Below, one piece after another: positions 5,921-51,674 of a stretch of DNA of 64,000 nt (position 1 is the stretch's first letter; each line of letters opens with the position of its first letter). Below the pieces are notes generated by a model. It was given only the letters and a program-made list of their open reading frames with translations, did not search any database and had not been told where the DNA came from. Location: IMG/VR virus record IMGVR_UViG_3300028394_000050, positions 42,949-106,948 of that record; one strand, given 5' to 3'. The translations under genes were made by a program, and so were the position numbers. This DNA is from a virus.

Positions 5921-6145
5921 TCAAGCCTCGTTTAGAAGCTCAGCCGAACCGCGAACCTGCTCACCGATAGTGCCAGGTGCATTGACGAAGCCCATAAGAA
6001 CTTCGGCCTTCTTGATAACATCATTGACTGTGGGATATTTTGCTGTGGCGTCACGCTTCATTTCCTGACCTAGAAGATATTCTTGGTCGCACATAGTCTG
6101 TGCCATCTGAAGAACATTGAAGCGGAGCATCTTATCGTCGTTCAT
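5921..6145 (-). CDS. conserved hypothetical protein (74 aa)
   Basis: Start at ATG 6145 with a strong GAGGTG 7 nt upstream. It begins MNDDKMLRFNVLQMAQTMCD and reads as a small all-helical soluble protein. It is the first gene downstream of the tmRNA and precedes tRNA-Gln. No family assigned. Confidence 0.65.
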   Translation of the reverse strand: MNDDKMLRFNVLQMAQTMCDQEYLLGQEMKRDATAKYPTVNDVIKKAEVLMGFVNAPGTIGEQVRGSAELLNEA

Positions 6146-6171
6146 AATTTTCACCTCTCTAATAGTGTTAG

Positions 6172-6495
6172 TGGGGGGATTCTGTTTCCACGTTCCCCCC
6201 GAACGCATTCTTAGGCTGCTAGAGCATAAGAGATAGGTGCATTATCGTTAGCATCTAAAACGCGCCTCGGTCTACTCGTACCTTTACTACTATCTGTCGA
6301 ACCTATATCGCCCCCATCAAAGATACACTAATCTACACAACAAGCTGGAGCATTTATCTCTTCATGCTTTAGAACTTGTTTGGCGGTAGAACTCTTATAA
6401 AGGATCGTCTTTATTAGTGTATCCATGGTGGAGGCGTCGGGTACTGCCCCCGAGTCCAAATGGTTTATTCCGAACGTCTCAACAACCTTAGCGTA
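6172..6495 (-). ncRNA. ssrA: circularly permuted (two-piece) tmRNA
   Basis: Reading the minus strand, the acceptor piece comes first and ends at 6426 with a T-arm TCGGG-GGCAGTA-CCCGA, then CGCCTCC and ACCA. A 110-nt intervening segment (6316-6425) follows, closed by a perfect 11-bp stem (6413-6423 with 6322-6332). The coding piece then starts at 6315 with GGGGGCG, which pairs with CGCCTCC as acceptor stem. The resume codon is GCT at 6252, and the tag frame 6252-6211 encodes ANDNAPISYALAA then TAA. Tags ending ALAA mark stalled products for 3'-to-5' proteolysis. The T-arm and permutation are signatures of alphaproteobacterial ssrA. Outer ends are approximate; the coding piece probably ends near the GGGGGG/CCCCCC hairpin at ~6172-6202. 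Confidence 0.93.
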
Positions 6496-6630
6496 TTATT
6501 TATAATACATGGAAAGAGGGTGTTTGTCAAGCAGATAATTTCTGGCTGATGCTTCTGACCAATTGTTGATGCAGATATATCGTGGGCAATCCCAGTAGAT
6601 AAAAACCCACGAGCTATAATGCTCACCCAT
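6496..6630 (-). CDS. possible small protein (44 aa) upstream of tmRNA
   Basis: ATG at 6630 overlaps the previous gene stop by 8 nt; the reading frame ends with TAA inside the tmRNA promoter region. The product is aromatic-rich (SSWVFIYWDCPRYICIN). Sharing bases with a strong promoter makes coding status uncertain. Confidence 0.35.
   Translation of the reverse strand: MGEHYSSWVFIYWDCPRYICINNWSEASARNYLLDKHPLSMYYK
6502..6530 (-). promoter_or_regulatory. tmRNA promoter
   Basis: TTGACA (6525-6530), 17-nt spacer, TATTAT (6502-6507), overlapping a TATAAATA box at 6497-6504. The start point would be near 6495, just before the acceptor piece. Confidence 0.8.
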
Positions 6631-8580: not shown

Positions 8581-8592
8581 TATTTATAAATA
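8581..8592. promoter_or_regulatory. palindromic late-promoter box (divergent)
   Basis: TATTTATAAATA contains the T4 late consensus TATAAATA on both strands. It lies between the divergent genes starting at 8553 (minus) and 8611 (plus), so one element could fire both ways. Confidence 0.6.
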
Positions 8593-8610: not shown

Positions 8611-8892
8611 ATGGATCAATGGTTCAAATTAGTTGCAGAAGTTGGCTTTCCTATCGCGGCTGCGTGTGCGGGTGGCTATTTCGTATTCCTCACAATGAAA
8701 TTCATTCTAGCAGGTGTTATGTCCAGTGTCAAGGGTCTATCTGGCATCATCACCGCGCTGGACAATCGAGTAAAGACAATGAACCACGATGTTATTCGTA
8801 TTGACACTTTGGTTTCGAATGCTCTTGGTGTGAAGCCAGATGTGGATCGTATCGCAAGAGCGGATGGTAAGAATGACGCACGAAGGGATTAA
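8611..8892 (+). CDS. small membrane protein, holin-like (paralogue of 10491 gene)
   Basis: 93 aa. One or two membrane segments span residues ~8-40 (VGFPIAAACAGGYFVFLTMK), followed by an amphipathic helix (ALDNRVKTMNHDVIRIDTLV) and a charged tail. The GFPI start and the NRV...DVIR helix are shared with the protein at 10491-10931, so the two are related. The layout is like YvrJ-type holin candidates seen in large phages; lysis function is inference. AGGAG lies 8 nt before the ATG and a late-type promoter box 19 nt upstream. Confidence 0.7.
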   Translation: MDQWFKLVAEVGFPIAAACAGGYFVFLTMKFILAGVMSSVKGLSGIITALDNRVKTMNHDVIRIDTLVSNALGVKPDVDRIARADGKNDARRD

Positions 8893-9013
8893 GATTGAAG
8901 TGATAGAAAGAACCAGAAACGGTATATCATATTATACCGTACTTCTAAATGATTGGGTATTTTTGATAACCAAAAATAAAAGCTTGGCGCAAAAAATTTT
9001 TAGGGAGAGTTGA
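8873..9013 (+). CDS. small hypothetical protein (46 aa)
   Basis: ATG at 8873, overlapping the holin-like gene by 20 nt and ending 2 nt before the carbamoyltransferase start. It reads MTHEGIKIEVIERTRNGISY and ends SLAQKIFRES. It fills the gap exactly, but the ribosome-binding site is weak. Confidence 0.45.
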   Translation: MTHEGIKIEVIERTRNGISYYTVLLNDWVFLITKNKSLAQKIFRES

Positions 9014-9015
9014 TC

Positions 9016-10485
9016 GTGAAATTTTTGTCATATCATGTTTGGCCGTACGAAACACCACCACCTACTATTAGACGTTATGCTGCACATGATTCGAATATCA
9101 GCTATTTTGATGGAAAAACTATTCGTTATTTTAAAAGCGAAAGAATGTTTCAGATAAAACACCACAAATTATCTGTTAACGATTGTGATGATATAACAAA
9201 AAAAATATGGGGTGTTAGTAGAGACGATGTTGATGATGTAATTTTTGTTTCTGCTGACTCTAATACAGTTGAGCCGCAATCAAATTTTAAAAATCTAATA
9301 AAGCACATATATTGTGAATCTACCGACGGAACAAAATTTATAGACCATCATTACGCACACGCTCTTAGTGTTTCTCTTTTAGAAGACGTTGATATCAGCA
9401 TTAATATAGATGGTAAAGGATCATTGAAGAGTTGGTCCGTATATCGTGGAGAACAGTTTCTTGATTGTGGTTATATAGATATAGCTGGGTCTATAGGTTT
9501 CAGTTTAACACACATAGGTCATAAGTTAAATATAAAAGGCGACGATATAGATTTGGCTGGTAAGTTAATGGGAGCACAATCTTATGGTAACATTGATAAT
9601 GAACTATTGAAGCTATTAAGAAAATACGATATCTATAATATAAATCCTGTGATGTACACTTTTGAAGGATATACCAAAAAATTAAATTGGTTAAGAACTG
9701 TCCATGAACGATATGGAGAAATGGTTTTAGAGCTATTTGAAAAATACGCTAAACCAAATGAACGAATAGGTTATAGTGGTGGTGTCGCTCAGAATGTGAT
9801 ATGGAATTCCAAACTCAAAGAAAAATATCCAAATCTTGTAGTGATGCCGTATTCTGGCGATGAAGGTTTATCTTTGGGTGGCATGGAATTTCTACGCAGA
9901 AAACATAATCTACCTAGGTTAAGTATGAGCAATTTTCCTTTTTGCCAATCAGACGAATCTCCTCCATCCGAATGCTTACAATTAGATAGAGTTGTAAATG
10001 CTTTAGCCAATGGTAAAATAGTTGCTTGGTATCAGGGTAATGGAGAGATTGGACCTAGAGCATTGGGTAACAGATCCATACTTATGGATCCTAGAATTGT
10101 AAATGGCAAAGACAAAATCAATCGGGTAAAGAATCGAGAATCTTTTAGACCATTTGGTTCTTCCATATTAGCAGAATTTGCAAAAGAGTATTTTGATGTG
10201 GATTATGAAAATCCTTATATGCTATATGTGGGTAAAGTACAGAAAGATAATCTATCATCAATAACACATGTTGATGGTACTTGCAGATTTCAAACCGTAA
10301 CAACTGGGCAATTTCGGCAATTGCTTGAAAAATTTTATGAGCTAACTAATTGTCCAGTTCTTCTAAATACGAGTTTGAATAACGCTGGAAATCCAATTGC
10401 AGCATTTTCTGCAAATGCTCTTTATGAATATGAAACAAATGCCATTGATATGCTTGTCATAGGCAATGAGGTTTACGAAAGGTAA
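9016..10485 (+). CDS. NodU/CmcH-family carbamoyltransferase
   Basis: 489 aa from GTG 9016, chosen because AGGGAGAG lies 7 nt upstream; a TTG at 9010 is too close to it. NodU enzymes carbamoylate a hydroxyl of a sugar or antibiotic from carbamoyl phosphate. The N-terminal Kae1-like domain has RRYAAHDSN and DHHYAHALS (metal histidines), then SGGVAQNV and GDEGLSLGG. The C-terminal YrdC-like part has WYQGNGEIGPRALGNRSILM and NRVKNRESFRPF. All hallmark residues look intact. By eye the gene is much more AT-rich than its neighbours, which suggests recent gain. Its substrate may be one of the phage-made or host surface sugars. Confidence 0.9.
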   Translation: MKFLSYHVWPYETPPPTIRRYAAHDSNISYFDGKTIRYFKSERMFQIKHHKLSVNDCDDITKKIWGVSRDDVDDVIFVSADSNTVEPQSNFKNLIKHIYCESTDGTKFIDHHYAHALSVSLLEDVDISINIDGKGSLKSWSVYRGEQFLDCGYIDIAGSIGFSLTHIGHKLNIKGDDIDLAGKLMGAQSYGNIDNELLKLLRKYDIYNINPVMYTFEGYTKKLNWLRTVHERYGEMVLELFEKYAKPNERIGYSGGVAQNVIWNSKLKEKYPNLVVMPYSGDEGLSLGGMEFLRRKHNLPRLSMSNFPFCQSDESPPSECLQLDRVVNALANGKIVAWYQGNGEIGPRALGNRSILMDPRIVNGKDKINRVKNRESFRPFGSSILAEFAKEYFDVDYENPYMLYVGKVQKDNLSSITHVDGTCRFQTVTTGQFRQLLEKFYELTNCPVLLNTSLNNAGNPIAAFSANALYEYETNAIDMLVIGNEVYER

Positions 10486-10490
10486 TAAAC

Positions 10491-10931
10491 ATGGATGGTA
10501 TTGCTGATCTAATTAACAAATATGGCTTTCCTATTGTCGCTGCTGGTGGCATGGGGTACATGATTTACTATGTATGGACATGGGCAACCAAAGAAATCAA
10601 ACCAGTCACAAGTGAAGCAAGCACCGTTCTTATTGCTTTGATCGACCGCATTCGTATGCTCGACAATGACCTTATCCGTTTGAACCAGAAAATCAATATC
10701 GTTCTTCAGTTGCGTGGCAAAGAGATTGAATCAGAACGTCACTTGCACGATGTTGAGACTGCAGCCAAAGCACAAGCTCGCGAACTAGAAGCGGCTGATA
10801 AGCAGGTCAAAGCTGCTGAAGAACTAGCAGCCAAGCATCATAACAATGCTGTCGAAATAGATGATGGGCCCATAACGAACCCAGAGCAAAATACCAAGCA
10901 AGAGCCAAACCAGAAAAATAAGAAAGTATAA
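10491..10931 (+). CDS. holin-like membrane protein with long coiled-coil tail
   Basis: 146 aa. The N-terminal membrane segment YGFPIVAAGGMGYMIYYVWT matches the 8611 protein, then a helix DRIRMLDNDLIRLNQKINIV and a charged Ala/Glu/Lys coiled-coil tail (~residues 75-125). It begins 5 nt after the carbamoyltransferase stop and converges with the cyclase gene 4 nt downstream. It may be a holin or antiholin, or a membrane anchor; function is inferred from layout only. Confidence 0.7.
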   Translation: MDGIADLINKYGFPIVAAGGMGYMIYYVWTWATKEIKPVTSEASTVLIALIDRIRMLDNDLIRLNQKINIVLQLRGKEIESERHLHDVETAAKAQARELEAADKQVKAAEELAAKHHNNAVEIDDGPITNPEQNTKQEPNQKNKKV

Positions 10932-10935
10932 TATC

Positions 10936-12993
10936 TTACTTGCTGTTGGTACGGAATACGCCATCCCAATCCTTAGGTAGGGGATTCTTTTTATAGTCCT
11001 CCACGCGCTCTTTCATCATTCCATAATATTCTCTTAGTTCATCATTGAATGCTGGTTCAAGCACATGGAAATAATTTTCCAATTGGTGCCATTCCTGTGC
11101 GCGATAGTATTTGATGAAGTCTGCGTGTGTGCGAGCATACGCTTTGTTGATACCAATCTTTTCAACGATGGTGTATATCTTCACACCTTCGCTCTTACCT
11201 TTCACAGCAAGGCAATCAAGTTCCACGCATAGATATTCATCCTTCACATATTCATAAGTCTTAGGACCAATTACCATCTTCACATGATATGGCTTGCTCT
11301 GCCCTTCCAAGCGCGATGCTAGATTGACAGTATCACCGAGGCAAGTATAATCAAAGCGTTGACTACTACCCATATTGCCAACCACAACGGAGCCTGTGTT
11401 AATCCCAAGACCCATACCAAAGGGTGGAACACCCTCAGTGGCGATCTCTTTGTTAAATCGTTCCAAATCATCTAGCATCTCCAATGCTGTTTTAACTGCG
11501 TGTTTCGCATGGTCCGCATCATCAAGTGGTGCATTCCAAAATGCCATCTGCGCGTCACCGATATACTTATCTAGTGTGCCATCGTTCTGAATTATCTTAG
11601 CCGTCATCGCTGTCATGTAGCGATTCATTATTTTCGTAAGGCCCTGTACGTCATTACCGTAATGTTCAGAGATAGTCGTAAAGCCCCTAACGTCAGTAAA
11701 CATGATAGATAGCTCACGGGTCTCTCCTCCCAAGCACAATAGTTCTGGGTTCTTCTGTAGTTTCTCGACCAGTGCAGGTGAAAGGTAAGTACCGAACTGC
11801 TTTTTAATTTGTTGCTTTAGTCTAAACTCGCGAGCGAAATTGTTGAATACCAAGTGCCCATATACAACAGTTATAGACAATACGATATAGCTTGCGTCCC
11901 ATAGTTGTAGCTCTGTTTTGAATAAATAATAACTCGCTGCTGATAATCCAACCACAATGAAAGCGTAGAATGGAACTGTCATCACTACCGTCAGTCTTGG
12001 AACTATATGGAGCAATAGTAGTAGCATGGTGGTTAGTAGTGCTCCTTCTATTAGCCTTCCTACGTTGGGGCGAGAAATAGAAGTTCCGTCTACCAGTGTT
12101 TGGAGTGTCTGCGCTTGAATCTCATGGGCCCACTTCTCACCGATTGGTGTTGCTATGATACCACCAACGCCTTCAATCGTTAGACCAAGAATAACAATCT
12201 TGTCCTTCACGCGAGCGTCTATCTCGGTTGCTTCTAGCGTATCAAATTTGGTATTCCAAGATAACCAGATGCGCCCGCGCTCGTCGGTTGAGATTGGTGG
12301 AAAAGCTGGGACTCTTACAGCTTCTATTCCACCTTCGTTCGTCTTAACTTGAAAGCTAGGGTCTCCAGCAGCGACACGAATGGTCTCCAAAGGAATGCTA
12401 GGATAAAGACCAGATGCAATATTGACAAGTAGAGGCATACGGCGAACCACACCGTCCAATTCAGAGATTGTTGCGACCACACCAACGCCTGAGGCAACTT
12501 CGGCATACTTGTCAAGAGGGCGTAATCCACCAGGCCAACGATAGACAACCCTAGCAGGATCAACAGGACCGATAGCAGCGAACCCACGACGAACCGAGTC
12601 GGGCTTACTGTTTTGAGTAGTAGGTGTTTGTGCGAGGACAACACCTTCAAGAGTTTTTGCCAGTTCATCATCGCCACCTGCTCTGTCTTTTTCAGAGAAT
12701 AGAATAGGCGCAACGATTACCGAAGCGCCGTTCTCTTTTAGTTTATTGATTGTCTTTGCGATATCTCGTCTGTCAAATGGCCACTGACCAAACTTCTCAA
12801 CCGACTTCTCACCAAAGTTAACAATTACAATCTCTTCTGATTGTTTCTTCTCCAGAGAAGTGATAAGATAATCAAAGGTCTTTAGCTGAAGCGTTTGAAT
12901 CGCGCTTGGGTTGATTGCATACAATGTCAACAGGAGACAGGCGCTGATAGCAACCATCCATGTGCTTGTAAGAAACTTGACTAGCTTTTCCAT
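10936..12993 (-). CDS. CHASE2-domain class III adenylate cyclase
   Basis: 685 aa. An N-terminal signal/TM segment is followed by a CHASE2 extracytoplasmic sensor (~25-320, with IVNFGEKSVEKFGQWPFDRR and DKIVILGLT). Three TM helices follow (~325-400, e.g. TTMLLLLLHIVPRLTVVMTV). The cytoplasmic class III cyclase domain (~415-620) has both metal aspartates (SIMFTDVRGFTT and LDKYIGDAQMAFW), the adenine-selecting Lys of LDKYIGD, and the Asn/Arg pair in GDTVNLASRLEG. It should make cAMP and appears catalytically intact. It is the last gene of the curli-like operon, overlapping the small curlin gene stop as TGATG. In bacteria CHASE2 cyclases often neighbour FecR-domain proteins, as here. I know of no described phage example. 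Confidence 0.92.
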   Translation of the reverse strand: MEKLVKFLTSTWMVAISACLLLTLYAINPSAIQTLQLKTFDYLITSLEKKQSEEIVIVNFGEKSVEKFGQWPFDRRDIAKTINKLKENGASVIVAPILFSEKDRAGGDDELAKTLEGVVLAQTPTTQNSKPDSVRRGFAAIGPVDPARVVYRWPGGLRPLDKYAEVASGVGVVATISELDGVVRRMPLLVNIASGLYPSIPLETIRVAAGDPSFQVKTNEGGIEAVRVPAFPPISTDERGRIWLSWNTKFDTLEATEIDARVKDKIVILGLTIEGVGGIIATPIGEKWAHEIQAQTLQTLVDGTSISRPNVGRLIEGALLTTMLLLLLHIVPRLTVVMTVPFYAFIVVGLSAASYYLFKTELQLWDASYIVLSITVVYGHLVFNNFAREFRLKQQIKKQFGTYLSPALVEKLQKNPELLCLGGETRELSIMFTDVRGFTTISEHYGNDVQGLTKIMNRYMTAMTAKIIQNDGTLDKYIGDAQMAFWNAPLDDADHAKHAVKTALEMLDDLERFNKEIATEGVPPFGMGLGINTGSVVVGNMGSSQRFDYTCLGDTVNLASRLEGQSKPYHVKMVIGPKTYEYVKDEYLCVELDCLAVKGKSEGVKIYTIVEKIGINKAYARTHADFIKYYRAQEWHQLENYFHVLEPAFNDELREYYGMMKERVEDYKKNPLPKDWDGVFRTNSK

Positions 12994-13256
12994 CAGTATT
13001 GGCTAACGATATAAGGACTATTGGGACAATTGAGACCACAAGTAACACTAAGACTAAAAGACTGAGGCGTGTTTCCAGATTGAGATACAATAGCCGAGAT
13101 ATTATTGCCAGTGAAATTAAGGGTAGCACTATGATTAGCACCAGACTGAGTAATACTAACATTCTGTAAGGATCCTATGATGTTCACGGTTGCATTATTT
13201 ACTGTCTGCGATAGCGCAGGCGTTGTCATTAGAAGGAGCGCGATTAATGTTTTCAT
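12993..13256 (-). CDS. small curlin-repeat protein (CsgB-like candidate)
   Basis: 87 aa. A Sec signal peptide MKTLIALLLMTTPALSQT precedes a mature region with two curlin-type strands-and-turns: NVSITQSGANHSATLNFTGN and AIVSQSGNTPQSF (the I-x-Q-x-G-x-x-N pattern). A C-terminal VTCGLNCPNSP could form a disulphide. It could be a minor fibre subunit or nucleator, exported through the CsgG pore. It lies between the FecR gene and the cyclase gene, with 1-bp overlaps at both ends. Confidence 0.75.
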   Translation of the reverse strand: MKTLIALLLMTTPALSQTVNNATVNIIGSLQNVSITQSGANHSATLNFTGNNISAIVSQSGNTPQSFSLSVTCGLNCPNSPYIVSQY

Positions 13257-14365
13257 CAGTTGCCCTGCTTTATAGTTATCGTTGTGGTTCCAGAACTGTT
13301 TACCATCTGCGTCACTGAACCACCATCCTGAGTCAAATTCAATGTCATGTTATGCGTAGTTGCTACAGTCAATTCCATATATGAGTTGTATGTTTCACGG
13401 TAGAGTGTCACATTATCCTGCTCAACAAAATACTTTAGGCCTGTCGATGCGTTATATTTAGGTAGTAATGCATTGAACTCTGCAAGCTCATTCGTTAGCA
13501 TCTGCGAGTTCGATAAGTCTAGAAAGTTTAGTAGAAAATCACTGTCAAGAAAGTTGCGATCTAGTTTGTTGTACTCTGTTAGGTAGTTCTTTTCAAGTTC
13601 GCTGTATTTGAGAAAATCAATACCAAGTAAGTCTGCGTCTAATACGTTTGCGATACGCTCAACTGGTTGCTCGCGCACGACAGGTTTTGCTGGTGCTACG
13701 ATAAGCATATTATTTATCTGATCCAGATTCAAATTCAAAATGCTGGATTTTGGTGTACTCATACTGGTCTGCACATTGACGGTCTCAAATGGCTTAGTCA
13801 ACCAGATAGTGCCCATATCCGTCGTTACTGAAATGGAACCAACCACACAGTCGCGTTCAATATTTCGCCAACCAGTAGGGCAAGAAGGAAGCAAAATAAT
13901 AGTAGAACGACCAATCTCATCGACGGTACCTGAGAAATCAGTTCCGCGGACACCGATTGTTGCTGTTGGTGTTTCCACCATGACTTGTTGCGGATCTGAT
14001 TTAGCAATTTGCCCGGATGCATATTTGATAGTGCCGAGCGCCATTTTGATGCCAAGCTTGCCAGTTTTCTTTTCACCGTCGTAAACAAAATTGTCAATGA
14101 CAAGGCGGCTGTGCTCCGTTATCTGGACTTTGGTATCATCTTGGAATGTGATACCAGTTTTCCCGTTCGCAGTCGTTATGGTATCTTTCATCTCAACGCC
14201 ACTGGATAGTGCGCTGGAAATCAAGTTAGCATCACGCTTTATTTCTGCTGGGCCTGTTTGCTCTGTGACCTTACCAACTTCAGACTTAGTTGTGGTTGGA
14301 CTTAATAAGCAGAGTATTGCCAGAACCAGTGATTGTAGAAATGACCTTAGAATCAACACCGCCAC
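13256..14365 (-). CDS. secreted FecR-domain protein
   Basis: 369 aa. The signal peptide region has SLVLAILCLLSPTTTKS. A FecR-type domain (~residues 45-160) shows VEMKDTITTANGKTGITFQD, then LGTIKYASGQIA and VETPTATIGVRGTDFSG, the usual FecR end motif. The C-terminal half is unrecognised. Stand-alone periplasmic FecR proteins often accompany CHASE2 cyclases and may bind surface polymer. The start is GTG 14365 (overlapping the curlin gene by 80 nt) or GTG 14359, both close to AAGG. Role here unknown; scaffold or sensor of the fibre is an inference. Confidence 0.85.
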   Translation of the reverse strand: MAVLILRSFLQSLVLAILCLLSPTTTKSEVGKVTEQTGPAEIKRDANLISSALSSGVEMKDTITTANGKTGITFQDDTKVQITEHSRLVIDNFVYDGEKKTGKLGIKMALGTIKYASGQIAKSDPQQVMVETPTATIGVRGTDFSGTVDEIGRSTIILLPSCPTGWRNIERDCVVGSISVTTDMGTIWLTKPFETVNVQTSMSTPKSSILNLNLDQINNMLIVAPAKPVVREQPVERIANVLDADLLGIDFLKYSELEKNYLTEYNKLDRNFLDSDFLLNFLDLSNSQMLTNELAEFNALLPKYNASTGLKYFVEQDNVTLYRETYNSYMELTVATTHNMTLNLTQDGGSVTQMVNSSGTTTITIKQGN

Positions 14366-14963
14366 CTTGCTTTATATCTACAGTGTTTGTTGCACCTAAG
14401 ATATTCACATCGGCTTCATGTCCATTCGTAGATGCTACGCCTGTCTGAATGATGTTGACACTATTGCCACCACCACCGTCAATTAGAACCGTACTCTTCG
14501 CACCCGCGACTGCGCTGGAATCATTCTCTATGTTTACGGTGTTGTTGTCTGTGTTTACCGTCACGTTTGATATCGTGAACCCCTCGGCCTTCTGCGTGAT
14601 CGTATTGTTATCGCCTGTGATGGTGTTGTTTAATGTTGAACCAGTGCATGTGCCACTGACACCGCATTGCATGTTGATGGTGTTATTATCACCAGTAACA
14701 AGTGAAGACGCGGTTACGCCATCACCTTGAACATTGATGCTCATTAGGTTGGTGTTACCAATCTGGTCAATCGTGACAGTGTTATTCTGCCCGTTGAATA
14801 TTGCTTTGTCGGCAGTATTTCCAATCACGTTCGAGTTGCCAGTCTGAGTCATAGAAATTGTAGAACCACTACCGATTTGGTCTACATACACACTATTGCT
14901 CGCGGCGTTTGCATATTGAAGCATAACCAAGAATGACAAAAATGCCAGTCTTGTACGTTTCAT
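14286..14963 (-). CDS. curlin-like amyloid fibre protein (CsgA-like)
   Basis: 225 aa. The signal peptide ends ~residue 20 (MLQYANAA). The mature protein is built of curlin-type repeats, for example VYVDQIGSGSTISMTQTGNS, NTVTIDQIGNTN, NNTITGDNNTITQKAEG, NSVNIIQTG and NTVDIKQGGG, i.e. Asn/Gln/Gly-spaced beta-strands, with roughly 8-9 repeats. C98 and C104 are one possible disulphide. It is the probable main secretion substrate of the phage CsgG/CsgF pore, starting 5 nt after the csgG stop. It is longer than E. coli CsgA (151 aa). The amyloid assignment rests on pattern, not alignment. Confidence 0.85.
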   Translation of the reverse strand: MKRTRLAFLSFLVMLQYANAASNSVYVDQIGSGSTISMTQTGNSNVIGNTADKAIFNGQNNTVTIDQIGNTNLMSINVQGDGVTASSLVTGDNNTINMQCGVSGTCTGSTLNNTITGDNNTITQKAEGFTISNVTVNTDNNTVNIENDSSAVAGAKSTVLIDGGGGNSVNIIQTGVASTNGHEADVNILGATNTVDIKQGGGVDSKVISTITGSGNTLLIKSNHN

Positions 14964-14968
14964 TTTGT

Positions 14969-15769
14969 TTACCTCTTCTTGATACTCCAGAGCTTCTTTT
15001 TGGCTCCCTCTTTTATCATATCGACCACTGCGGCTTCTATTGCTATTCTAACTGCATATGTTGTAGGTTCATTCGCTGTTGTCCCAGCTTCAAACTCGAC
15101 AGACCTCGTACCCGCATCAACAAACTTAAACACATTCGCACCTGCGCTGGTGCTTAGAATAGTCTTGGATGATCCAGTGGACAACAGAACTTCGCCTGTG
15201 TTTATGGATATCAAACGCAGAACCACCGTGACTTCATCCTTACGGTACTCTTGGTTGGCCCCAACGCCAAGGAATCGTGCGCCAATACCACCAGTGCCAA
15301 TGTTTGAATCAAAGCCAACAATGCCACCATCAATCATAATACCTGCGACGGTCAATGGTGTAAGCGGCTTTGCTTGATCCTTCTCGTATAGCTCACGTTG
15401 GCTACGAATGAGCTGGCGTTCCTTCACGAGGTTTTCAAGCGACGCCCGCTCTACCACTTGAAACCACCGACCCCTACCGGCGTCCTGGAGAGCCTTTATC
15501 AGGAACACCTCTGCACCCTGCGTCACTGCGGAACTCAAGCTGGCAAAGTTGGTAGCGGGCTTGCGTTGACCCGTCATATCTGGAAAGCGGTAGACCGCGA
15601 TAGGAATGATGGATCCATCCACACCTCTCAAACTAGCCAACTCATTGAACCGCTTGTTCATAATGATTTCTGGCGCGTCTGCTACCTCTTCAATCACATC
15701 CTTTGACATAAGCGTTGGCGAGCAACCAGCCAACAGTAGGCCTACCAATACCATACCAATCTTTACCAT
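14969..15769 (-). CDS. csgG: CsgG, curli outer-membrane secretion lipoprotein
   Basis: 266 aa (E. coli CsgG is 277 aa). CsgG forms the nonameric outer-membrane pore that secretes curlin. The lipobox LLLAGC is at residues 11-16. Family signatures cover the full length: AVYRFPDMTGQRKP, TQGAEVFLIKALQDAGRGRW, FQVVERASLENLVKERQLIR, GGIVGFDSNIGTGGIGARF, LGVGANQEYRKDEVTVVLR and GEVLLSTGSSKTILS. It overlaps csgF by 7 nt (ATGGTAA) and precedes the curlin-like gene. No csgE, csgC or csgD is present. The protein looks complete and functional. Confidence 0.95.
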   Translation of the reverse strand: MVKIGMVLVGLLLAGCSPTLMSKDVIEEVADAPEIIMNKRFNELASLRGVDGSIIPIAVYRFPDMTGQRKPATNFASLSSAVTQGAEVFLIKALQDAGRGRWFQVVERASLENLVKERQLIRSQRELYEKDQAKPLTPLTVAGIMIDGGIVGFDSNIGTGGIGARFLGVGANQEYRKDEVTVVLRLISINTGEVLLSTGSSKTILSTSAGANVFKFVDAGTRSVEFEAGTTANEPTTYAVRIAIEAAVVDMIKEGAKKKLWSIKKR

Positions 15770-16203
15770 GCTAAACTCCCGTAGGGAACCACAACCTCTG
15801 TGACGCTACCAGCTGCGTCGGTTATTCGTAATGTAATCTGTGAACCATCAGATGACCATTGGACATTGTTGGTTGCTATGCTAAATGTGCCAGATGTGGC
15901 ACCGTTGTCGGAGAACAGTTGCTCGGCTATCTTCTGCGAGAGTGTAGCATATACGCGGCTCTCGAGGTTATTGATAAACTTCGCAAGGTTCGTATTCTTA
16001 GCATCCGATGCGGCCTTAGAAGCTGCTGCTACCTTGTCGTCCATGATCTTTTGGCGTCTGGTCTGTTCCAGATTCTCAATGGTCAGGACATGCGAAGAAA
16101 AGCCCACACCTGAGAAGGCGGGGCTTTTAAAATTGAACTGTAGTTCGGTCGCATATAGCGGCATTGCTGCCACACATAACAAAGCTACTAAAAGCTTTCT
16201 CAT
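15763..16203 (-). CDS. csgF: CsgF-like curli assembly factor
   Basis: 146 aa (E. coli CsgF is 138 aa). The signal peptide MRKLLVALLCVAAMPLYA is followed at once by the mature N-terminus TELQFNFKSPAFSGVGF, the part that inserts into the CsgG channel in the known CsgGF complex (E. coli has TFQFRNPNFGG). A helical Ala/Lys region (~50-95) and a C-terminal beta domain follow. It is the first gene of the curli operon, 8 nt after thyX, with AGGTG before the ATG. A TATAAATA box at 16209-16216 abuts the start. Confidence 0.88.
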   Translation of the reverse strand: MRKLLVALLCVAAMPLYATELQFNFKSPAFSGVGFSSHVLTIENLEQTRRQKIMDDKVAAASKAASDAKNTNLAKFINNLESRVYATLSQKIAEQLFSDNGATSGTFSIATNNVQWSSDGSQITLRITDAAGSVTEVVVPYGSLAW

Positions 16204-16208
16204 GCACC

Positions 16209-16216
16209 TATTTATA
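16209..16216 (-). promoter_or_regulatory. possible late-promoter box at csgF
   Basis: TATAAATA, the T4 late consensus, lies at the end of thyX and only 5 nt before the csgF ATG. Transcription from it would give a nearly leaderless csgF message, so its use is doubtful. Confidence 0.3.
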
Positions 16217-18596: not shown

Positions 18597-18729
18597 CGTT
18601 GTCAACCTCTAATATAGCATAGACGATAGGAACAACCTTACGATACATATAACGATCTGGTTCTTCTAAACGAATAATTGGCAACAGATCGTCTTCATCG
18701 TGAAGATAACATAACCATGCAAGTTTCAC
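18589..18729 (-). CDS. small hypothetical protein (46 aa)
   Basis: GTG start at 18729, overlapping the Bax-inhibitor gene stop as GTGA. It reads MKLAWLCYLHDEDDLLPIIR and ends in TAG. The coupled start and exact gap filling support it. Confidence 0.5.
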   Translation of the reverse strand: MKLAWLCYLHDEDDLLPIIRLEEPDRYMYRKVVPIVYAILEVDNDE

Positions 18730-19427
18730 TTTCTATCTCCCAACAACTGAAGCAGGTTCACAAAGATATTGATGAAGTCTAGGTAAAGATTGAGAGCGCC
18801 AAAGATACCAGCCTTGCGGATTTCTTCGTCGTCATTTAGCTCGTAGTACTTCTCTTTGATATCTTGCATGTCATATGCAGTGAAGCCAACAAAGATAAGC
18901 ACACCAATAACACTGATGGCAAAAGCCATAACGCTACTCTGTAGAAACAGATTGACAACACCAGCAATCATCAAACCAATCGCACCCATCATTAGGAACG
19001 AACCCATGCTACTAAGGTCACGCTTGGTTGTGTAGCCGTACAATGCAGTAGCACCAAATGTTGCAGCACTAATGAAGAACACATTAGCAATGCTGCCCAA
19101 CTTGAAAATCATAAAGATGCTACTGAGACTTAGGCCCATCAAAGCAGAGAAACAATAGAGCATAGTCTTTGCTGTACTTGATGACATACTATCTGCCATG
19201 TATGAGAACAGGAACACGAATGCAAGAGGCGCAAAGATAGCAACCCACTTGAATGGTGTTCCCCAAATAGCAGCACCAATCTCAGGTGACAGACCAATGT
19301 ATGCGCTGACAACCGCACTGATTAGCAATGCGATTCCCATATGATTGAACACACCAACGAGATATGTTCTGAGACCCCAATCAATTACTGGAGCGGGGTA
19401 TGCGTGTGATTCGTTTTGATAAGACAT
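18726..19427 (-). CDS. Bax inhibitor-1 (BI-1/YccA-like) family membrane protein
   Basis: 233 aa with about seven TM helices. Family hallmarks include GLRTYLVGVFNHMGIALLIS near the N-terminus, ALYGYTTKRDLSSMGSFLMM (typical of BI-1) and FVGFTAYDMQDIKEKYYE, then GALNLYLDFINIFVNLLQLL near the C-terminus. Bacterial BI-1 relatives include YccA (FtsH modulator) and the pH-gated Ca2+ channel BsYetJ. In a phage it might modulate host membrane proteolysis or ion flux and delay cell death; that is inference. It heads a run of small genes. Confidence 0.92.
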   Translation of the reverse strand: MSYQNESHAYPAPVIDWGLRTYLVGVFNHMGIALLISAVVSAYIGLSPEIGAAIWGTPFKWVAIFAPLAFVFLFSYMADSMSSSTAKTMLYCFSALMGLSLSSIFMIFKLGSIANVFFISAATFGATALYGYTTKRDLSSMGSFLMMGAIGLMIAGVVNLFLQSSVMAFAISVIGVLIFVGFTAYDMQDIKEKYYELNDDEEIRKAGIFGALNLYLDFINIFVNLLQLLGDRK

Positions 19428-47590: not shown

Positions 47591-47665
47591 TGGTGATCCT
47601 AACGGGACTTGAACCCGTATTCGATGTTTTAGAGACACCCGCATAGCCAGTCATGCTCTAGGATC
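47591..47665 (-). tRNA. suppressor tRNA (CTA anticodon, reads UAG)
   Basis: 75 nt with CCA. Acceptor GATCCTA/TAGGATC, D-stem GCAT/ATGC with GG in loop, anticodon stem GGTGT/ACATC around CTCTAAA, T-stem ACGGG/CCCGT around TTCAAGT. T33 and A37 are canonical, so the anticodon is CTA, an amber reader. Position 8 is G rather than T. The amino acid charged cannot be judged. Confidence 0.85.
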
Positions 47666-51596: not shown

Positions 51597-51674
51597 TGGT
51601 CCTCCGTATCGGATTTGAACCGATGATCTCCGCGCTTGAAAGGCGGGTATGTTGGACCGCTACACCAACGGAGG
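51597..51674 (-). tRNA. tRNA-Glu (TTC)
   Basis: 78 nt with CCA; acceptor CCTCCGT/ACGGAGG, D-stem GTGT/ACAT, A26, anticodon stem CCCGC/GCGCG (one C-C mismatch) around CTTTCAA. A one-base shifted reading would give TCA, but the loop and A26 favour TTC. Confidence 0.83.

Follow-up and report, generated by a model that had tools for sequence, protein, structure and literature searches.

A six-gene operon encoding a type VIII (curli) secretion module lies on the minus strand of IMG/VR virus record IMGVR_UViG_3300028394_000050. The window analysed is 64,000 nt long and covers bases 42949–106948 of this 106,948-bp record, which is a genome fragment. All positions below are those of the window. The module consists of csgF, csgG, a curlin gene, fecR, a second curlin gene and an adenylate cyclase gene, and it is accompanied by two genes for small membrane proteins and by a late-gene promoter signature.

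Module genes and phage context

In order of transcription, csgF (15763–16203) encodes a 146-aa protein with a signal peptide (Pfam PF10614, E 8e-19; phrog_35372, E 4e-44), and csgG (14969–15769) encodes a 266-aa outer-membrane pore lipoprotein with the lipobox LLAGC (Pfam PF03783, E 2e-53). These are followed by curlin 1 (14286–14963; 225 aa, signal peptide, Curlin_rpt E 2.9e-5, predicted beta-solenoid), a secreted FecR-domain protein (13256–14365; 369 aa, Pfam FecR E 1.7e-10), the CsgB-like curlin 2 (12993–13256; 87 aa, signal peptide, Curlin_rpt E 1e-4) and a CHASE2-domain class III adenylate cyclase (10936–12993; 685 aa, CHASE2 E 2.9e-40, Guanylate_cyc E 1.3e-22). All six products score above curated Pfam cut-offs (E 1e-4 to 2e-53), and each of the five products that are secreted or placed in the outer membrane shows a signal peptide or a lipobox. 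A preliminary description made from the sequence alone had placed six open reading frames here on the minus strand, and every one has the domain it named: CsgF, CsgG, curlin repeat, FecR, CHASE2 or cyclase. It had also reported start/stop overlaps throughout. These are present at four junctions, with 7 nt shared by csgF and csgG, 80 nt by curlin 1 and fecR, and one base each at fecR/curlin 2 and curlin 2/cyclase; csgG and curlin 1 are separated by a 5-nt gap. The neighbour upstream of csgF in the window is thyX.

The type VIII secretion features found are a CsgG pore lipoprotein, CsgF and secreted curlin-repeat subunits, of which curlin 2 is the weaker. CsgG aligns with the Escherichia coli CsgG structures 3x2r and 4uv3 over nearly its full length (E ~1e-48). 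CsgF is 39–41% identical to CsgF of phages HTVC008M and Melnitz and matches the solved E. coli CsgF only weakly. Curlin 1 reaches 24.4 bits against the Curlin_rpt cut-off of 20.7, and 18 of 22 family members carry the repeat. Its AlphaFold model (predicted local distance difference test 86.5, predicted template modelling score 0.81) has the short regular strands of a beta-solenoid. Curlin 2 exceeds the Curlin_rpt cut-off (22.6 bits, E 1e-4) and matches the NCBIfam CsgB profile at E 4e-4, under that profile's cut-off. Truncation of curlin 2 to a pseudogene was ruled out: a form of about 88 aa is kept in close relatives, with a ratio of nonsynonymous to synonymous substitution rates (dN/dS) near 0 relative to the 154.7-kb relative G001/L005.

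Curli genes of ocean phages are already known. Reports of csgF and csgG came with a proposal of 'sibling capture' (Zaragoza-Solas et al. 2020, PMC7029224), and the order csgF-csgG-curlin-FecR-curlin-adenylate cyclase was described in pelagiphages (Wittmers et al. 2022, PMC9599517). The preliminary description had taken marine phages to be known for csgG and csgF alone. This was mistaken, as HTVC008M and Melnitz are annotated with all six genes in identical order and PMC9599517 already mentions the curlins along with FecR and the adenylate cyclase. The identical order also recurs in IMG/VR loci. The locus shares with the pelagiphage modules (PMC9599517, PMC7029224) the six-gene order, the common strand and the lack of CsgE. 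Each gene has a homologue in HTVC008M (KC465899) and Melnitz (MZ577097), where the flanks are likewise T4-type; identities are 40–41% for FecR, 44–48% for CsgG, 44–45% for the cyclase and 39–41% for CsgF. The second curlin, of 87 aa here, is longer in Melnitz (338 aa) and HTVC008M (441 aa). With the E. coli csgBAC/csgDEFG system the locus shares CsgG and CsgF homologues and curlin repeats with signal peptides. It differs in that no CsgE was found, no csgD lies in the operon, the CsgG constriction-loop region is different (TGQR motif), and FecR, a CHASE2 cyclase and small membrane proteins are added. Plasmid-borne CsgG proteins most like the phage protein are mostly alphaproteobacterial, at 42–51% in an identity comparison. 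A separate CsgG in a 1499-bp UNVERIFIED record (OR851715.1, 'Salmonella phage S.Kent 1-2-1') has a loop identical to that of E. coli CsgG and looks like host DNA rather than a phage gene.

The neighbours of the module are T4-type genes with HTVC008M homologues: gp32 single-stranded DNA-binding protein, gp59, gp33, exonuclease, PhoH and RNase H. The same locus occurs in relative L005, where FecR is 96% identical and the gp23 capsid gene is present; gp23 was not found in the record itself, which is a fragment. Misassembly of a host contig into the phage, which the preliminary description had considered, and host contamination are ruled out by the T4-type neighbours and this relative. We assign the virus, which is taken to infect marine-type bacteria, to the T4-type myoviruses, as a relative of HTVC008M and Melnitz. 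Relative to L005, dN/dS is 0–0.11 for all six module genes and both companion genes, and all genes tested are under purifying selection. A FecR-profile scan gave at least 501 related IMG/VR viral stretches, of which 80 loci were kept. Where flanks sufficed, csgF and csgG lie upstream of fecR in 63/63 kept loci and the cyclase gene lies downstream in 51/53. In many divergent relatives (within L042–L083), the fecR–cyclase interval is enlarged to 1.3–5 kb and encodes long curlin-like or other secreted proteins of up to about 740 aa. The module is found as well in two contigs of 246 kb and 329 kb that encode gp23-like capsids, with the cyclase in the 246-kb contig. The view first put forward, that the phage carries a curli secretion module together with its substrates and a membrane sensor producing cyclic AMP (cAMP), is well supported.

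GC content is 44% here versus 33% in the HTVC008M region. A phage transfer-messenger RNA of the two-piece alphaproteobacterial type lies at 6120–6534 (RF01849, 108 bits; also called by RF04321), and its type points weakly to an alphaproteobacterial host lineage. The phage has about 30 tRNAs, including two potential amber and opal suppressors at 47591–47665 (anticodon CTA, called Pyl) and 51597–51674 (TCA, called SeC); 64 large open reading frames end in TAG in 6 cases and TGA in 28. A Bax1-I-type membrane protein gene lies at 18726–19427 (Pfam E 2e-59; no PHROG match).

Companion membrane proteins and late-promoter motif

Companion proteins A (8611–8892, plus strand; 93 aa) and B (10491–10931, plus strand; 146 aa) are small paralogues with one transmembrane segment each, and both match phrog_18771 (E 5e-33 and 2e-31, respectively). 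Gene B is convergent with the cyclase gene. A Nol-like carbamoyltransferase gene (9010–10485) lies between A and B, and HTVC008M has one at 1306–2751. In HTVC008M and Melnitz the companion genes are arranged differently; here they converge on the operon and have the carbamoyltransferase gene between them.

The pair was surveyed in contigs fetched solely via the companion protein family, in two sets made up of close relatives of the queries. Module genes occur in 146 of 160 companion-family IMG/VR contigs; each of the remaining 14 stops no more than 2 kb from the pair. Contigs with full flanks have fecR and the cyclase in 31 of 35 cases; the other 4 have the cyclase, with CsgG further along the contig. 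The companion genes immediately precede csgF, in the same orientation, in 66/74 cases in one set and 24/66 in another. The long divergent contigs checked have the pair as well, and module contigs without it are judged to be cut before its expected place. Among 50,697 phage records it is restricted to curli carriers, and companion B has no match in plasmids. The evidence is strong for the sampled lineages, rather than for all phages, that the pair is tied to the curli module, as indicated by every adequately long contig examined. This link is new here and was previously overlooked.

A 'histidine kinase, sometimes two' was reported upstream of podovirus modules (PMC9599517). In this phage, HTVC008M and Melnitz the companion pair stands at that place or beside the cyclase end instead. 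The companions (93–146 aa) have no kinase domain match in Pfam or NCBIfam. We tentatively infer that they are the proteins reported as kinases.

The T4 late-promoter consensus TATAAATA lies just upstream of csgF (16209–16216, minus strand) and again upstream of companion gene A (8585–8592, plus strand). It occurs 11 times in the window versus 3.1 expected, and 0 of 100 shuffles reach 11. Either TATAAATA or CATAAATA stands 13–33 nt ahead of the csgF start in 13 of 26 T4-like loci versus 0.16 expected; these loci include close relatives, and the 13 occurrences are not independent events. In relatives without the motif before csgF, a companion gene mostly runs straight into csgF, and the promoter could be located further upstream. 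Late promoters of pelagimyophages could not be predicted in earlier work (PMC7029224), and the late-gene promoter signature before csgF is new here. The module is probably expressed late in infection.

Late timing also bears on the main rival explanation, control of lysis and release. A pinholin or secretin role in lysis was argued for Melnitz, which was said to lack fibre genes (PMC9004378). Extended to this locus, the idea is that CsgG, CsgF and the companions would work as a holin-like device or regulated pore, in which the curlins would serve as plugs or spacers and the cyclase would set the timing. The late-promoter motif agrees with this, as does the obligate single-transmembrane pair, which stands directly before csgF in many relatives and has a weak holin-family match (companion B, E 1.6e-4). 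However, an outer-membrane CsgG pore would not depolarise the inner membrane, and the companions appear to have a conserved helix after the transmembrane segment, not a typical holin tail. Secreted curlins, CsgF, FecR and a cAMP sensor under purifying selection are also left unaccounted for. We consider lysis control rather unlikely.

FecR protein and CHASE2 cyclase

The FecR domain is present in 34/34 family members (Pfam). The FecR protein has a signal peptide, lacks the anti-sigma region and ends in a conserved beta domain with two near-invariant Gln residues. Structure comparison of its model identified the PupR cell-surface-signalling domain 6ovk as a match (Foldseek E 1.6e-4), and its tail is modelled as the final strands of a six-strand beta domain. 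The tail was also considered as a curlin repeat; the profile comparison is suggestive only (P 0.008 and 0.014 versus curlins, 0.76 versus a CsgG control), and this identity is not claimed. The domain name is the sole basis of the label 'iron regulator' for this protein.

The cyclase keeps the metal-binding Asp434/Asp480, the adenine pair Lys476/Asp554 and the transition-state Arg561 invariant in 60/60 phage copies, and because of this it should make cAMP, by analogy with other class III cyclases. Neither the phage record nor four relatives yielded a cyclic-nucleotide-binding domain, so the cAMP would act via a host receptor.

FecR genes adjoin CHASE2 cyclase genes on alphaproteobacterial plasmids without curli (Ruegeria, Paracoccus, Shinella, Ensifer and Sinorhizobium meliloti). 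Two of these plasmid loci also stand beside peptide-export genes: in Shinella and Ensifer (L096 and L097) the pair lies beside NHLP-type peptide export ATP-binding cassette transporters, and the sensor pair may generally be located beside export systems. In a Burkholderia operon with FecR and a CHASE2 kinase, insertion in the response-regulator gene gave a strain without biofilm production (PMC5192318). The bacterial pairs (the Burkholderia BiofilmReg operon and plasmid loci L087, L095 and L096) resemble the phage pair in encoding a secreted FecR-domain protein beside a CHASE2 sensor, and differ in having no curli genes and FecR ends without the phage-type beta tail. The curli operons examined on plasmids have neither FecR nor a CHASE2 cyclase. 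Since FecR/CHASE2 pairs occur without curli and plasmid curli operons occur without both, the phage module is probably a secretion operon to which a separate envelope-sensor pair was added. A bacterial operon combining curli, FecR and cyclase genes was not found on plasmids, and a scan of bacterial genome contigs gave a single, phage-like contig; there may still be a chromosomal parent operon. That contig (L085, NZAX01000026.1), from a Flavobacteriaceae metagenome-assembled genome, contains both a phage-type curli module and the companion pair and is probably a misbinned phage contig.

Proposed function of the module

Our preferred reading, at a probability of roughly 0.55, is a phage type VIII secretion module that is expressed late, places curlins on the infected-cell surface, senses through FecR and the CHASE2 cyclase by way of cAMP, and serves aggregation or a superinfection block. 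CsgG would be the outer-membrane pore, with CsgF capping it and nucleating fibres. The major subunit would be curlin 1, a solenoid, and the minor one the CsgB-like curlin 2; both would exit via CsgG and assemble into polymers on the infected cell. The FecR protein would be the periplasmic partner of the cyclase and report the envelope or secretion state by raising cAMP, which would be received by the host. The likely benefit would be gained at the infected-cell surface, where hosts could aggregate or be retained and competing phages be blocked. Earlier papers had already put forward aggregation, a superinfection block and a gated pore that times lysis as hypotheses (PMC7029224, PMC9599517, PMC9004378).

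Several points weigh against this reading. The curlin repeats are degenerate and barely exceed the Curlin_rpt cut-off, and the repeat is matched in just 2/12 members of the curlin 2 family. Curlin 2 is missing, and so dispensable, in relatives L039, L041 and L043–L045, where fecR abuts the cyclase gene. No clumping was seen in Melnitz-infected cells (PMC9004378). Companions A and B are assigned no function. Finally, CsgE was not found in the 107-kb record or four long relatives, where an E. coli control was positive; this agrees with the preliminary description for CsgE, and CsgC was not searched for. CsgE is an accessory gate reported to promote curli release and to be dispensable (PMC7029224).

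The degenerate repeats are also compatible with a non-amyloid adhesive or protective layer, in which the curlins would be secreted as folded beta-solenoid adhesins and not as cross-beta fibres. The curlin 1 model is a regular solenoid with no significant structural match to solved curli, and its best, non-significant neighbours are beta-solenoid proteins. However, CsgA curlin fibres themselves are stacked beta-solenoids, and CsgF and CsgG are present. Such a layer is distinctly unlikely. Even less probable is an import or permeability pore, as proposed in PMC7029224 and PMC9599517, in which CsgG, ungated for want of CsgE, would admit larger nutrients sensed by FecR and CHASE2. In its favour, the FecR protein shares its fold with ferric-siderophore signalling proteins. 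Against this, the conserved CsgF and two curlins would be superfluous, and the FecR protein has neither the anti-sigma region nor an adjoining TonB receptor or sigma factor gene, which leaves iron sensing merely a name.

Within the curli secretion reading, we tentatively consider an eight-gene, two-membrane apparatus, somewhat doubtful as a whole. The companions and the FecR/CHASE2 pair would be obligate parts joined to the CsgG/CsgF/curlin exporter. Unlike bacterial curli, such an apparatus would turn outer-membrane secretion or amyloid assembly into a cAMP signal in the dying host.

Curli modules are widespread among ocean phages of hosts without curli. The companion pair provides new testable parts of the phage curli system, and the late-promoter signature narrows the module's time of action. 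FecR and CHASE2 as a borrowed bacterial sensor pair would supersede the iron-based reading, with cAMP as the signal to follow in the cultured phages Melnitz and HTVC008M.

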